NCBI GenBank assembly: GCA_963920635.1
Contig: OY987308.1
Span: forward strand, 2,360,225 to 2,424,224
DNA from: Pseudeuparius sepicola
Lineage: Eukaryota; Arthropoda; Insecta; Coleoptera; Anthribidae
Length of the DNA: 64,000 nucleotides
Reading direction: 5' to 3'
In this document: piece after piece, positions 3,491 through 30,929 of the stretch
How the letters are laid out: every line of letters begins with the position of its first letter
Position numbering within the stretch: position 1 is the first letter of the stretch
Notes under the pieces: model-generated
What the model saw: the letters and a program-made list of their open reading frames with translations, nothing else
The model's database searches: none
Told to the model about the DNA's origin: nothing
Program-made: the position numbers and the translations under genes

Positions 3491-4708
3491 AGTAAGGGCA
3501 GAATGTAAACGCGAAGTCGGAAATAAATCATCAAAGAGAGAGCGCTATATCTATTGCTTTACTTGCACTCGCACAGTTACACTCATGTCTCCTCCTCCAA
3601 TTTGTATTCGACGTACGTCTTAAAGTTCGCTAAGCACCTTTCATGAAAGAAAGGGAGATAGAAAACCTAGTACTTGTCTTGTATTACTAGTTGATTGTTT
3701 AAATCAGGCAGGGTCGGCCTAGAATAAATTATTGCTTTCCTACCTGATGTGAACGGACCGATTAAAAATTTGTACTTAGGTATCTGTTTTCATTCATTCA
3801 TTTCATTTGTAATTTTTGAAGATTAATTCGGTAATTTAGACTGGCAATTAAAAAATAATGATCCTAAAATTCAAAGTAGGTCTAAGGTATTTAAATAATT
3901 ATTGTAATGGTTAGGCAAAAAAAAATTATATTTTTAGTTACAAATTACAATTATAAACCTTTTCCCATCATTCGCTTTTTTGTTGTACACACATTTTGGA
4001 TTTTTGTCGTGCCAAGTTCTCATATTCGCCCCGTGTTGAAAAATCCAGGTCTCGTCTAAAATCACTACGTCTAGAGGGCAGCTTGAAAATAAATTGGATG
4101 TATATTGTAGAAATCGAACTCTTTTTGATGCTATATCTGGCTTTTCCATTAAGTATTGTCGTCCATCGTTTATTTTGTACTTAAATCCAAGATTTAATAA
4201 AATTACATTTAACTTTGATTTGCTGCAGCTCAAAATTCCCTTTTTTTCCAGTTCTTCGCATATTTTTTCCCTAGTTAAGTGTTGCTTGTTAGTTGTCATG
4301 TCATAAATCAAACTTCTTATTTCTCCTTTATCCGATTCTGTCAAATCTTTAGTTTTCGGGGCTGCTTTACTTTTAGTGTGTACCATTTTAATATGTTTAA
4401 TCGTTGACTGCCTTCCTGCCTAATTCGTGAAATGGTCCTTGTACTAATCTGTAACGCCTCCGATGCACATTGAAGTACCGATAAATTTTCACATGTTCTC
4501 TTTTTTTCCTTGTAAATATTTCACCACATTTAATATTACTGCCATGTTTTATAGGCGTACTCCCATTTGAATTATTATCTTTATTAACATAATGTATCAG
4601 ACAAGGACAGAACCCCTCGCTCCAAAACATAAGGGAGACCAGGTAGAAAAATCATAGCCCATCTCTCTCGATTTTATGGCCGACTTCGCCTTTACGATCT
4701 GCCCTTAC
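3491..4708. mobile_element. Tc1/mariner-like element nested in the hAT element
   Basis: The terminal inverted repeats are about 30 bp, GTAAGGGCAGAATGTAAACG at the left and the complement of CGTTTACATTCTGCCCTTAC with a few changes at the right. Each is bordered by TA, the usual Tc1/mariner target. The element contains a damaged transposase start on the minus strand (3934-4640). About 1.2 kb remains, too short for the full gene, so it has suffered internal deletion. Confidence 0.8.
3934..4640 (-). pseudogene. Tc1/mariner-like (DDE_3-type) transposase, N-terminal remnant
   Basis: The larger frame (4386 down to 3934, 150 codons) has a helix-turn-helix region (REKICEELEKKGI, then SKSKLNVILLNLGFKYK) and then the first catalytic motif VVILDETWIFQHG followed by TWHD. 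This is the YLDETW-type motif of insect DDE_3 transposases, so the first aspartate is present. The second and third acidic residues are missing because the frame ends soon after. A preceding helix-turn-helix segment can be read in other frames at about 4400-4560 (LQISTRTISRI), so frameshifts separate the parts. A cut-and-paste transposase is known for the family; this copy cannot be active. Confidence 0.75.
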
Positions 4709-22690: not shown

Positions 22691-23072
22691 AGACTAAGTA
22701 TTCTCCTCGGATTACAAAAATACAAATGTTTCTATCTAGAACAATAATTGGAGGGCGTTACTCGAAAAGGAACCAAGCGCCATTTTCATGATTTGAGTAA
22801 AACACACTTAAAGTTCAGATTATATTTTAATTTGCTTAAAAATAATTCGAATTATGTTTTGATATACTCTGAATAGTTATAGTCCGACTGAAATAATACA
22901 CTTTAAGAATGTTAGCTAAATTTTGGAAAAATGTATTTTTTTTTAGATTTTGGCGTTTGGTTCTTTTGATATTAATACAGAAATAGAACATGGATCTTTT
23001 TAAACCTTTTTTTTTATTACAAAAGTTACAAAACTAAAAGAGCTTCTTAACAATATTATGTGATATCATCAT

Positions 23073-25032
23073 CTAGTCAGCATCAGCTTCTTCAAATTCA
23101 AAATCAGCTTCTTCGCCAAAGCCATCTATGTCATCAGTAAACTTTCTAGGTTGAAGATTTTTGTAAAAATCCTGAACATCTTTAGGAATAAGGGGTAACA
23201 AACTTTTTATATCGGCTAATTTTTTGTCAGAAATAAGTTTTCCTTCAGGATATAAAAGTTCGAATTTTGAAGAAAAAAAATTGTCTGTATTTAATTGTCT
23301 TCCCCTTGTGTTTCTTTTTATGTTAACTTCTTGAAATTCGCCCTCTTCATGAGTAGACTTAAAAAATATTGAAAACGGTTTGTTTTTAATAATTTTAATT
23401 ACTCTGGTATTTAGCCAGTTAACTTTGTTACCGTGTATATCCATTTTTCTATTAGTAATAAGTTTCTCAATTTCCTTCGTGCTTAAGAAATCCTCTTTTA
23501 CCATTTCGTGCACGATAAATTTACGCTTCTTCGAACACCCTAGCACAATATTTTTAAATTCTTTAAGAGTGTATATTCTAATTTGATGCTTTATTGCACT
23601 TTCTATTTTCCCAAAATGAGAATCATTTGGCAAGTAACTGTGGCCCGGAATAAGATATTTAAAAAATATAGTTTTTAATGATTTGTTTGTTTCTAAAACA
23701 CTTTTTAGGAATAGAACAATTTTTACGTTTCTGTTCTGCCCACCACAAGAGTCGGACCATAGAATCAGCTCTTCAGTTTCAGGCGAAACGTACTTATCAA
23801 TCATAACTTTTAAGCATGAACCAACCTCTTGCGCTCCTCTTCCAGCGGTTCCCTCTTTCCATAAAAAACAGTATGGCTGGGTATTCGACCCTTGGTAAAT
23901 ACCTTCATTGTATAAGGAAAGCTGTCTTTTATAATAGACTATGTTAGTTGGCAGTTTTGGCAGTCCGAGTACTTTTTCCATGTCGTAAGTAAGTGTTTCA
24001 CTTTTATTATTTTCTGTCGATCTAGCCAAGTCACTTTTCAGAGCACTTCTTGCTTTCTCTGCTTTTTCCAAATGTTGGTTGTGTAAAATCTTGGTATTGC
24101 TTAATAACTCGGGATCATCTTGACAACTTTTTATTTTTGCATTAAACTGATCGCAAGCATTACAGGTATCTTTAATAGGTGGCTTCCTTTTCAGATTAAA
24201 GTTTTCATAAAATAATTTTTTATAGGTAGCAAAAGCTACTTTTGGATTTTGGTCTTCCAAATATAGATCGTGCATTTTCTTAAGAGTCAAATCGAAAGGT
24301 AAATACTTAGCTTCAGTTTCACCCCTACAGTAGTGGGACACATAAGTTGGAAACGATGCAATGTGTTTAATTACACTTTTTTTAATTTCATCCGGTAGTT
24401 TTTTAATAATTTTATTTCCGCCATAATTACCTCTTTCGTCTTTTAAATTTCCAGTATTAAATTTTTTTAGAGCAGTATCAACTCTTCGTAGATATTTGTA
24501 GTGATTTAATGTATATATTCCTGCATACACTAATATTATTTAAATGATATGTGCGGGTGAATTGTCTTAAGTTACTTGCTTTATTCCTTTTTCCTTTAAT
24601 GCTTTGCTGTCTAACTGAAGCAGCTATAAAATTGTTCTGACTTTCATAAGTTTGCAAAGCCCAAAATTGTTCGAATATGTTTTGTCTAATATTGGCTGCA
24701 ATCTTATCGCTGCATTTTAGAGAACAATTGCAATCAAAATCCAAAAAAGTTTTAGCTTTTGTCAATTTTCCTTTTACAGTGTAGTGAGTCTGATTGGAGT
24801 TTTTTAACATTTTTCTACTCGTGAATGTTTGACCAGGATATTTAGCTTTTCTGCCCTTTTTAAGTCTTCCTCTTGTATTATTTTGTGTTTCTTCCACTTC
24901 TTGATTATCAGACTCTTCACTTGATCTCATTTCTGCTAATTCTTGCTTGGTTGGATTATATTCACTCCCAGAGTCTTCAAAATCACTAAAATTTTCTATA
25001 TCTACCTCTCTTTGTAGTAGTTGTTGCTTGTC
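23073..25032 (-). CDS. DUF7869-like putative DDE transposase, exon 4 (main exon, one frameshift)
   Basis: The acceptor TTTAAG|GACAAG at 25032 continues the phase-0 frame. The first part (25032 to about 24485) is acidic, then basic (RGRLKKGRKAKYPGQ), then DCNCSLKCSDKI and a FWALQ helix. A frameshift near 24480-24490 moves to a 480-codon frame that ends at 23073. This second part has CNAC (residues 123-126 counted from 24530), YDMEKVLGLPKLP (D183), ILWSDSCGGQNRN (D260) and PGHSYLPNDSHFGKIE (D303, E310), then an acidic tail. I recognise the WSD-CGGQN and PGHS-PND motifs as those of an uncharacterised arthropod family (DUF7869-like). The D-D-E order and the predicted beta strands fit an RNase-H-fold transposase; this is inference. 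The frameshift may be a decay mutation or an assembly error. Confidence 0.8.
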
Positions 25033-25082
25033 CTTAAAGCACTATATAAATAATTATGTTTATCATGTATTTTTTTACTTAC

Positions 25083-25322
25083 CAGCTCAACATTATCAAA
25101 TAACTGTTGACCTCGCTGTTGAATATTTTCATTGTTGGCAATGTATTCAAATTCAATTTGGTTTTGATTTTTTAGATCGATATCAGAAGAGCTATTTTCT
25201 TCGCATTCTTTGTTAATAATTTTAGTAAATGCTTGATTATCGATTTGGGAGATAATAATAATATTTCCACAATTTTCAAAATCTTGATTAGGTTCATTAT
25301 TCATAGCACTAAATTCTGAAAC
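25083..25322 (-). CDS. DUF7869-like protein, exon 3
   Basis: It encodes 80 residues in phase 0 between the acceptor TTTTTCAG|GTTTCAGAA and the donor GAGCTG|GTAAGT. It begins VSEFSAMNNEPNQ and ends FDNVEL, an acidic, asparagine-rich, probably disordered linker. It is a paralogous duplicate of exon 2, with which it shares start, end and middle (QIEFE), plus a 22-residue extension after NQDFE. The two mini-introns flanking the duplicates are also alike. Confidence 0.8.
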
Positions 25323-25379
25323 CTGAAAAATAAATATTTATTTTATAATGTGGTTAGAGTCCGTATTTTTTTAACTTAC

Positions 25380-25553
25380 CAGCTCAACATTGTCAAATGA
25401 TGGTTGACTGTTTTCTTCGTTACTAATGAATTCAAATTCAATTTGCTTTTGATTAATGCGCTTAATACCAGAAGAGCTCTCTTCTCGGAAATCTTTGTTA
25501 ATTTCAGTAAATGCTTGATTAGGTTCATTATGCATAGCATTAAATTCTGAAAC
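25380..25553 (-). CDS. DUF7869-like protein, exon 2
   Basis: It encodes 58 residues, in phase 0 at both sides: acceptor TTTTTCAG|GTTTCAGAA, donor GAGCTG|GTAAGT. It starts VSEFNAMHNEPNQAF and ends SFDNVEL. The peptide is acidic and shows no fold that I recognise. Because both duplicates are in phase 0, either could be skipped without losing the frame. Confidence 0.8.
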
Positions 25554-25914
25554 CTGAAAAATAAACATTTATTTTATGGTTGTGAGATGTGACTTGCGTT
25601 TTTCTAGCAATCCCGCATTCGGGACTCTAGACACATCTTATTATTTTAGAAAAAAGATACCTTCTTATTGTAAATAAATCCAGGCGACACTATCATTTAT
25701 TATCTAAAATATATAAGAGGAACCAAGCGCCATACAACATAAATTTTGTATTCCTTGTCTGAGAAAATGTTTTAAACAAATAGTGGTACGAATAGTAATA
25801 ATTATTGTTACCTAGTAAAACTTTTACTAATTTAAAACGAACATTAGCATTGAATTACTATTAAAGTTGCTAGCACTATAAGGAAAACATCATAACCTAG
25901 AAAAATGTACTTAC

Positions 25915-26019
25915 CTTTTCAGCAAAATTTACAGCTTTATTCGTAACACTGCATTGTTGGTTTGTTATACTAGTTTCTTCCACTACCATTGATAGTATTT
26001 TTTTTCCTCTCATAGACAT
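25915..26019 (-). CDS. DUF7869-like protein, exon 1
   Basis: The ATG at 26019 opens 35 codons (MSMRGKKILSMVVEE to NFAEK) ending at a donor AAAAG|GTAAGT in phase 0. It joins in frame to exon 2. A second ATG two codons later is also possible. The upstream 60 bases down to the subterminal repeats are probably the promoter and short leader, so expression would be driven from inside the transposon. Confidence 0.7.
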
Positions 26020-26094
26020 CTTTTCGCACAAAATTTGGTAAACACTGGATAGCTAACTAAACGCTAAACCACCTTCCATAAACGTGAAAATTGT

Positions 26095-26210
26095 TCAAAA
26101 AGAACCATGCGCCAAATAAATATGTCTACAAGGAACCAACCGCCAGACATAAACGTGAAAAAGAACCATGCGCCAATAAATATGTCTACAAGGAACCAAC
26201 CGCCAGACAG
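26095..26210. repeat. Subterminal tandem repeats of the DUF7869-type transposon
   Basis: A unit of about 60 bases containing AGAACCATGCGCC, TAAATATGTCTACAAGG and GAACCAACCGCCAGACA occurs twice in a row (26101-26160 and 26161-26210). The GAACC-GCGCC core equals the inner part of the TIRs, pointing to transposase binding sites close to the gene's promoter. Confidence 0.75.
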
Positions 26211-26417
26211 TCGCTTGGATCCCTTTAAATAAAGGTAATGGAACCTGTTTCTTGGTTTGTCGCTTAATTCGATAGTCAATAGAGGGAGTTAGGGTGTAAG
26301 TGCGGCTTGGATCTTTTTCCAGTATCTAAGTATAGTTGTTTGAAGGCGCTTGGTATTCATAACACAAATTTTAACATTTGGCGCTTGGTTCCTTTTCGAG
26401 TAACGTCCTCCAATTAT

Positions 26418-29230: not shown

Positions 29231-29995
29231 TACAGTGCCCGCCAAAAAGTCTGCACCATATGGGAAAAATTTTAGTAAATAACTTACGGAAAATTTGTTT
29301 GCGGCATCAGGTTTTGCTTGCTCTAGAACCAAAATTGACATAATCAAATGTTGTGACGTAGTCTTTTTTATATGCCAAATTTGACATTAATGAAAAAAAT
29401 GTCCGAAAAATAGGCTTATTTAACCGAATTTCGAAAAAAGTCATAAGAAAAATATGTTTATTTCGCAATTTTATACCCCTGTGCAAAATTTCAAGAGCCT
29501 TCTACGATTTTGATATTTTGCCCTTTGTTGCCCTTTTCCGTATTTGTTAATCCATAAAAGTCGATCCTATGTAATTTAAAACACTCATTGACTGAATACA
29601 TACTGCACAATACTTAGTTTACGGTCTAAATATCCTTCTTTTCCTTTTTTTTGCAAAAAAATTAAAATGAGGGCTTGTTGAAGAAGCACGCTTGGTGCAA
29701 AACTGATCTCATTTTTACAGATAAACACATAAATTCGATTTACAAACTTCTTTCTATAGTAAATGGTTGTAAACATACTCACAAATATTTCTGTCATGCT
29801 GATCTGATCGGAAATATCTAGAAAATTTAAAATATTATGTCCAATAATATCCAACAAAGGGCAAAATATGAAAATCGTAGTAGGGTCTTGAAATTTTGCA
29901 CAAAGGTATAAAATTGCGAAAGAAACATATTTTTCTTATGACTTTTTTCGAAATTCGGTTAAATAAGCCCATTTTCGGACATTTTTTTCATTAAT

Positions 29996-30929
29996 TTAAA
30001 CCCTGCCAAGTGCAGTGTGGTTAGGTACTCTCGAAAAGAGTCAAATATTACATTTGATTACAAATTAGGTAACACAAGTCTTGCTTCTAAGGACAGTGTT
30101 GATGATCTTGGGGTCCGCTTTGATAGTGTCATGTCGTTCAATGAGCATTTCAATAATATTTCGGGTTTTTTGTTGAGACACTGTCGAGGCTTCACAAATA
30201 TTGCGGCTTTGAAGACTCTGTTCTTTTCACTCGTCCGTTCCAAACTGGAATATTGTTCTGTTATTTGGCATCCAATTTATGAAACCCATGAAAAGCAATT
30301 AGAGTATGTTCAAAGAAAATTTCTTAAATTTCTTTATTATAAAACTCACGGCATGTACCCTCCTCGTGGATATGACCATCAGGCACTTCTTAATGAATTT
30401 AATATGTGTTCATTGATAGTTCGCCGATCCGTTTCTGGTGTTTCCTTTTTATATAACTGTATCCGAAACAATATAGATTCTCCTTTTTTTCTTTCTAGAC
30501 TAAACATACGAGTACCAAGACCTAATTCACGGCTAACATCTACATTTTACGTTCCCTATGCTCGTACTAATATAATGTTTAAGTCGCCAATTTATTTTAC
30601 ATCCAGTCTCCATAATATGTTGTCTGATGAATGTGATCTGTTTGATTGCTCCAAGCCTTCCTTTTTGAGGTGTGCCATTGAGTGCTTTTCATAATTTCAC
30701 GTTATGTGATGGGTAGTATAAGTATTAGTCCGCTGATAATTGTACTGTACAGGGTAGATACCCTGCGTGGGGCTCCCTATACTATGTTGATTATATTGAT
30801 TGAGCTGTGCTTACTTTATAATCAGTTTTCTTTATTTTTTCTGTGGTGCTATGTTCCCTTTATATTTATCTTTGTATGTTGTCCTGTAAATGGATTTTTC
30901 TGTTGGGCAATAAATAAATAAATAAATAA
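29996..30929 (+). mobile_element. 5'-truncated non-LTR retrotransposon insertion
   Basis: The insertion ends in a (TAAA)n tail and is bordered by the 6-base direct repeat ATTAAT (29990-29995 and 30930-30935). It contains only the C-terminal end of a reverse-transcriptase protein plus a 3' UTR. This is the expected product of target-primed reverse transcription that stopped early. Confidence 0.8.
30017..30694 (+). pseudogene. Non-LTR reverse transcriptase, C-terminal end
   Basis: The frame is open from before 30017 (NPAKCSVVRYSRK) and encodes DLGVRFDSVMSFNEHFNNIS, then FSLVRSKLEYCSVIWHP, EKQLEYVQRKFLKFLYY, and ends in a stop after IECFS. These are the thumb-region hallmarks of Jockey/CR1/I-type elements (LGV.FD..L.F..H, LVRS.LEY.S..W.P, LE.VQR.F). 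The polymerase core with the catalytic aspartates is missing, so it is a 5'-truncated copy, though the remaining 225 codons have no stop. Confidence 0.85.

Follow-up and report, generated by a model that had tools for sequence, protein, structure and literature searches.

A recently mobile DNA transposon of the beetle Pseudeuparius sepicola whose DUF7869 gene very probably encodes its transposase

Results

A mobile element with defined ends and 4-bp target duplications

We analyzed a 64,000-nt window of the genome of the beetle Pseudeuparius sepicola (contig OY987308.1, positions 2,360,225 to 2,424,224) and found that it contains a recently mobile, cut-and-paste DNA transposon of 3,662 bp, bounded by terminal inverted repeats (TIRs) and carrying a gene of the Pfam family DUF7869 (PF25273; Table 1). 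It is very likely that the copies of this element form a cut-and-paste family that encodes its own transposase in the DUF7869 gene, and DUF7869 very probably represents a DDD(E) transposase. With this, a function is assigned to a domain that occurs in many proteins of insects, molluscs and sea urchins but has been listed there only as unknown.

A whole-element DNA search of the genome (769 Mb, 16 contigs; all 11 candidates scored) recovered six full-length copies with 97-100% identity and a pairwise divergence of 0.14-1.76%; between the window copy and a second one located at 7.63 Mb of its contig, 5 of 3,648 positions differ. The flanks differ among all six copies (judged by eye), both TIR arms are present in each, one copy (L003) having one arm with a changed tip, and exact 4-bp duplications border five of them (AATT, ACTT, ATTT, CAAT and AATT). 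Apart from these copies, the search returned the arms belonging to them and coding relatives, but no short copy standing by itself.

The ends could be placed precisely. In the window, the inverted arms (22744-22782 and 26379-26417) are 39 nt long with one mismatch, as an earlier note on this DNA had described, and the 25-bp core of the arm occurs twice, a count equaled in none of 100 shuffles. However, the termini GGAGGG...CCCTCC common to the copies set the boundaries at 22750-26411, and because the copies and the empty sites place the end there, the outer 6 bp do not belong to the TIR. The true TIR is therefore 33 bp, the AATT duplication having been included in the longer repeat, and the outermost AT/AT of the arms, beyond the duplication, is a matter of chance.

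We further joined the flanks of seven insertions (the six copies and L023, a member of a second family), retaining the 4 bp once in six cases, and compared the joined flanks with the genome (40 of 2,854 candidates scored). Uninterrupted counterparts were found for three insertions, all in repeated host DNA: three places for L002 (99.6-100% over 240 bp), 27 rows for L004 and 10 rows for L005. Each junction read (three, five and five loci, respectively) held a single copy of the 4 bp, which demonstrates insertion with a 4-bp duplication. The AATT duplication postulated for the window element was thus upheld, AATT being seen at its flanks and the length of 4 bp coming from the empty sites of the three other copies. 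Together, the copies, the duplications and the empty sites, which the earlier note had suggested looking for, identify the element as a mobile DNA element. The idea that a host gene lies by chance between inverted repeats, which the presence of introns might favor, is hardly credible in the face of multiple copies, their duplications and the empty sites of three of them.

Gene and ends diverged together in three families

In a Pfam search of the genome, 150 of 535 candidates were scored and every one of the 150 was a DUF7869 match above the cut-off, compared with none in 14 control genomes. A second family in this genome has its own TIR (GGATGATGCTTATTGAAAAGGAACCAAGCGCCA) and shares the inner motif of the window family; its member L023 is flanked by an AATT duplication and encodes a protein 51% identical over residues 220-805. 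The third family is far more diverged (its protein is 26% identical across 332 aa, with E = 2e-28), with eight copies among the 30 loci listed; seven of these have GAAGARTGGAAGTACCAAAGGCACTAAGTGCCA at both ends and are flanked by AATT (six copies) or AGTT (one), while the single-ended L065 was excluded from the 15 two-ended copies of the three families. Exact 4-bp duplications were found at 13 of the 15, none of which extends to 5 bp. Since the three diverged families each carry the gene inside their own ends, gene and ends have diverged together.

Relatives are not confined to this genome: one protein homolog search gave at least 442 of them, the best-scoring named ones being beetle proteins. 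Pattern matches in viral contigs (n = 33) and in prokaryote genome contigs (n = 25) yielded no confirmed relative.

A predicted RNase H-like core with invariant acids

The main exon matches PF25273 (E = 9.4e-7), in agreement with the DUF7869-like identity previously assigned to the gene. Conservation was assessed in a 66-member set and in a 32-sequence alignment (A3), with residues numbered as in the protein model P0001. The earlier note had proposed the DDE triad D183, D260 and E310, which correspond here to D179, D256 and E306 (an offset of 4). The first two proved invariant, whereas E306 is only nearly so, and D299, which is invariant and lies at the start of a predicted helix, is for these reasons the better placed candidate for the third catalytic acid.

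Structure prediction, another of the checks suggested earlier, yielded a putative RNase H/integrase core for the catalytic part. The best Foldseek chain was a Mos1/mariner transposase, and Mos1, Hermes, Metnase and TnsB were among the transposases in the fold-match lists; a Sola structure was absent from these lists, which means little. The BFVD structure search returned nothing at E <= 0.001. An N-terminal domain (residues 146-290 of the Diabrotica model) was also confidently predicted.

The motif GGAACCAAGCGCCA, allowing up to two mismatches, has eight sites in the window, all within 22769-26392, that is, in or between the arms (0.11 expected), in line with the repeated subterminal motifs already noticed. 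We infer that the N-terminal zinc/helical part of the protein would bind these GGAACCAAGCGCCA-type motifs in and beside the TIRs. The RNase H core would hold metal ions via D179, D256 and D299 (possibly E306), cut at the GGAGGG ends and insert the element at staggered positions 4 bp apart, with a preference for AATT-like targets. Both the cutting and the joining would be metal-dependent reactions of the three acids, while the element ends, the duplication, the insertion and the linkage of gene and ends are directly observed.

Several findings weigh against this interpretation. Two copies lack a target duplication and were counted as misses, namely L003, with its altered right tip, and L024, a second-family member that is 36-55% identical in pieces. 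The window protein barely exceeds the Pfam cut-off (29 vs 26 bits), and the Foldseek E-values are weak, with no match at E <= 0.001 and a best value of 1.1e-3. No empty site was found for four of the seven insertions among the scored candidates, which says little because so few were scored. Finally, the gene is open in none of the six copies of the window family, so that its movement would need another copy or another source of enzyme. As the copies are nevertheless near-identical and hence moved recently, the gene might be a passenger on an element mobilized by another enzyme. This seems very improbable, given that the gene lies inside its own ends in three families despite the protein divergence reported above, that the element contains no open frame longer than 103 aa apart from the exons, and that the predicted fold is integrase-like with invariant acids. 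The reading of the gene as the transposase of its own mobile element, as proposed in the earlier note, is thus supported by the copies, duplications and empty sites, by the linkage of gene and TIRs and by the predicted core.

Classification

Judged by published features only, it is probable that the element belongs to Sola2, an already catalogued group within the Sola superfamily, or to close kin, DUF7869 being the Pfam name of its transposase. Sola elements are described as having a DDD transposase, a 4-bp duplication, a size of mostly 2-9 kb and TIRs of 11-1124 bp (PMC10741241), and in the account of two slime-mould species Sola2 has AT-rich 4-bp duplications (AWWT) and TIRs of 12-21 bp (PMC3627910). 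Sola2 has also been reported in an ostracod (PMC7998251) and a wasp (PMC7822920). Compared by description, the element here agrees in its AT-rich 4-bp duplication (AWWT in 10 of 13, by the definition from the two slime-mould species), in a DDD triad if D299 is the third acid (three aspartates invariant in 32 of 32 sequences, E306 in 30), in its size of 3.66 kb and in falling within the superfamily's TIR range, but differs from the slime-mould elements in its longer TIRs (33 bp). Moreover, no slime-mould name appeared among the 61 rows and the 120 of 128 rows listed in two length-steered searches, although a word-based search easily misses such names and many rows are nameless; the published slime-mould Sola2 transposase has 888 aa, a length that both searches covered.

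The earlier note had instead suggested an undescribed superfamily, here one of DDD(E) cut-and-paste transposons so far known only as DUF7869 proteins. We regard this as rather unlikely, although several negative results favor it. Within the collection of papers searched, neither DUF7869 nor PF25273 is mentioned. No transposase or integrase family was present among 25 of the 32 Pfam families matched by the 66 members, no solved structure was matched by sequence, and none of the listed named homologs was called a transposase, most homologs being nameless and the names shortened. Of the protein motif words searched for in the literature, three returned nothing and CGGQN returned four papers, unrelated to judge from their titles and abstracts, and broader searches, mostly at listing level, gave no newly described superfamily that fits. 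On the other hand, the published Sola2 features fit, and with so many relatives in a single search and 150 matches in one genome, we find an oversight by Repbase curators hard to believe. Thus, the mobile element, the gene/TIR linkage and the RNase H-like prediction of the earlier interpretation stand, whereas the third acid was adjusted and a new superfamily was not established. Only tentatively, then, might DUF7869 proteins be the transposases of an undescribed animal-wide DDD(E) superfamily that prefers AATT among its 4-bp targets and has ends starting with G(R)(R). Its marine members would often be fused to an OTU domain, which may protect the enzyme or the transposition complex against turnover by the host. 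If there is truly no match to Sola2, this would add one more superfamily of eukaryotic DNA transposons.

Other known systems were compared in the same way. None of the 13 duplications is TTAA, which excludes piggyBac, whose target is given as TTAA in its description, as well as Kolobok and Sola3, which share that target. Academ, with a 3-bp target duplication according to a summary account (PMC5199201), was excluded by the 4-bp duplication here. A CMC filing was also rejected; by eye, the translation contains no CxxC between D256 and E306. Ginger1 resembles the element in its integrase-like catalytic core, its 4-bp duplication and, sometimes, an OTU domain, but it is described as inserting at CCGG or CCGT and ending in TGTNR (PMC2836005), and the AATT-like target and GGAGGG ends exclude it. 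The likeness to Mos1/mariner is one of fold only (an RNase H-like DDE/D core), since mariner is listed as duplicating TA (PMC5199201) as opposed to 4 bp here, and no solved chain was matched by sequence. Similarly, the retroviral integrase catalytic core is alike in fold only (5-13% identity in the integrase rows of the comparison), and no retroelement parts were seen.

Two consequences follow from these results. Gene catalogues that list such proteins as host genes probably list transposons, and with the exact ends and the target established from the empty sites, the enzyme is directly testable.

Gene structure and annotated features

The gene has four coding exons, all joined in phase 0, and both the exon count and the phases proposed earlier were borne out. 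The 2-bp frameshift in exon 4 is peculiar to the window copy and shared by none of the five others, which carry shifts or stops of their own. A five-exon model with an open protein of 810 aa was rejected, as homologs read through the supposed fourth intron and each of the five other copies shows a 2-bp difference at this place; the fifth exon is an artefact, since an intron had been used to bridge the frameshift. With this model rejected, P0001 is out of frame over its first ~11 residues, and residues 1-12 have pLDDT < 50 in the predicted model. Apart from the frameshift and the extent of the TIR, the earlier observation was confirmed as a whole. Exons 2 and 3 with their borders (window 25083-25553) appear to form a tandem duplication, with pieces 77-96% identical (repeat families D1, D4 and D6).

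Table 1. Coordinates of the element and its features in the window
Feature	Position	Strand	Remarks
DNA transposon, 3,662 bp	22750..26411	-	gene on minus strand; six copies at different sites with common ends
Left TIR, 33 bp	22750..22782	+	
Right TIR, 33 bp	26379..26411	-	1 mismatch
Target site duplication AATT, left copy	22746..22749	.	
Target site duplication AATT, right copy	26412..26415	.	
Coding exon 1, 105 nt	25915..26019	-	GT donor
Coding exon 2, 174 nt	25380..25553	-	AG/GT borders; resembles exon 3
Coding exon 3, 240 nt	25083..25322	-	AG/GT borders; tandem relative of exon 2
Coding exon 4, transposase body	23073..25041	-	broken by 2-bp frameshift near 24485
DUF7869 (PF25273) match	23508..23882	-	
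CNCSLKC, candidate zinc ligands, N-terminal domain	24712..24732	-	second Cys 32/32, last Cys 30/32 in A3; all three >=90% in A2
CNAC pair (C119, C122), candidate zinc ligands with invariant histidines	24153..24164	-	C119 66/66; C122 65/66 with one gap; pair 32/32 in A3
D179, end of predicted strand 1	23982..23984	-	66/66 and 32/32
D256, after predicted strand 4	23751..23753	-	66/66 and 32/32
D299, start of predicted helix 297-311, preferred third acid	23622..23624	-	66/66 and 32/32
E306, alternative third acid (choice of the earlier note)	23601..23603	-	65/66 and 30/32
Subterminal GGAACCAAGCGCCA-like motif	22951..22964	-	2 mismatches
Subterminal GGAACCAAGCGCCA motif	25719..25732	+	exact
Cluster of four subterminal GGAACCAAGCGCCA motifs	26101..26205	+	at 26101, 26132, 26162 and 26192

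Further observations

Elsewhere in the window, open frames at 3934-4419 and 29963-30694 resemble a Tc1-type transposase and a reverse transcriptase (by eye), with no Pfam match over the cut-off in either interval.

An OTU domain (PF02338) was seen by eye in 37 of the 120 distant DUF7869 proteins listed, in a search steered to more than ~850 aa and thus favoring fusions. Four distant DUF7869 proteins carry PF04843, which we take to be a herpesvirus tegument N-terminal domain. Judging from the domain matches, these may be cases of a deubiquitinase-like part fused to the transposase.

The genome also holds a further relative (L021:2934-4800), 46-72% identical in pieces, one end of which starts GGGATAGCGCTTATCTAAAGGGAACCAACCGC (by eye); its other end was not found. 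In further DUF7869 families (L039-L068), near-identical copies occur as the pairs L042/L043, L052/L053 and L056/L057, and L052 and L053 have the left end GAAGAGTATAAGTTACAAAGGGTCTAAGTGCCA in common. The second-family element at L023 lies within a larger near-palindrome (L023:2419-7508), whose arms measure 53, 202 and 63 nt on either side and which looks like another inverted-repeat element.
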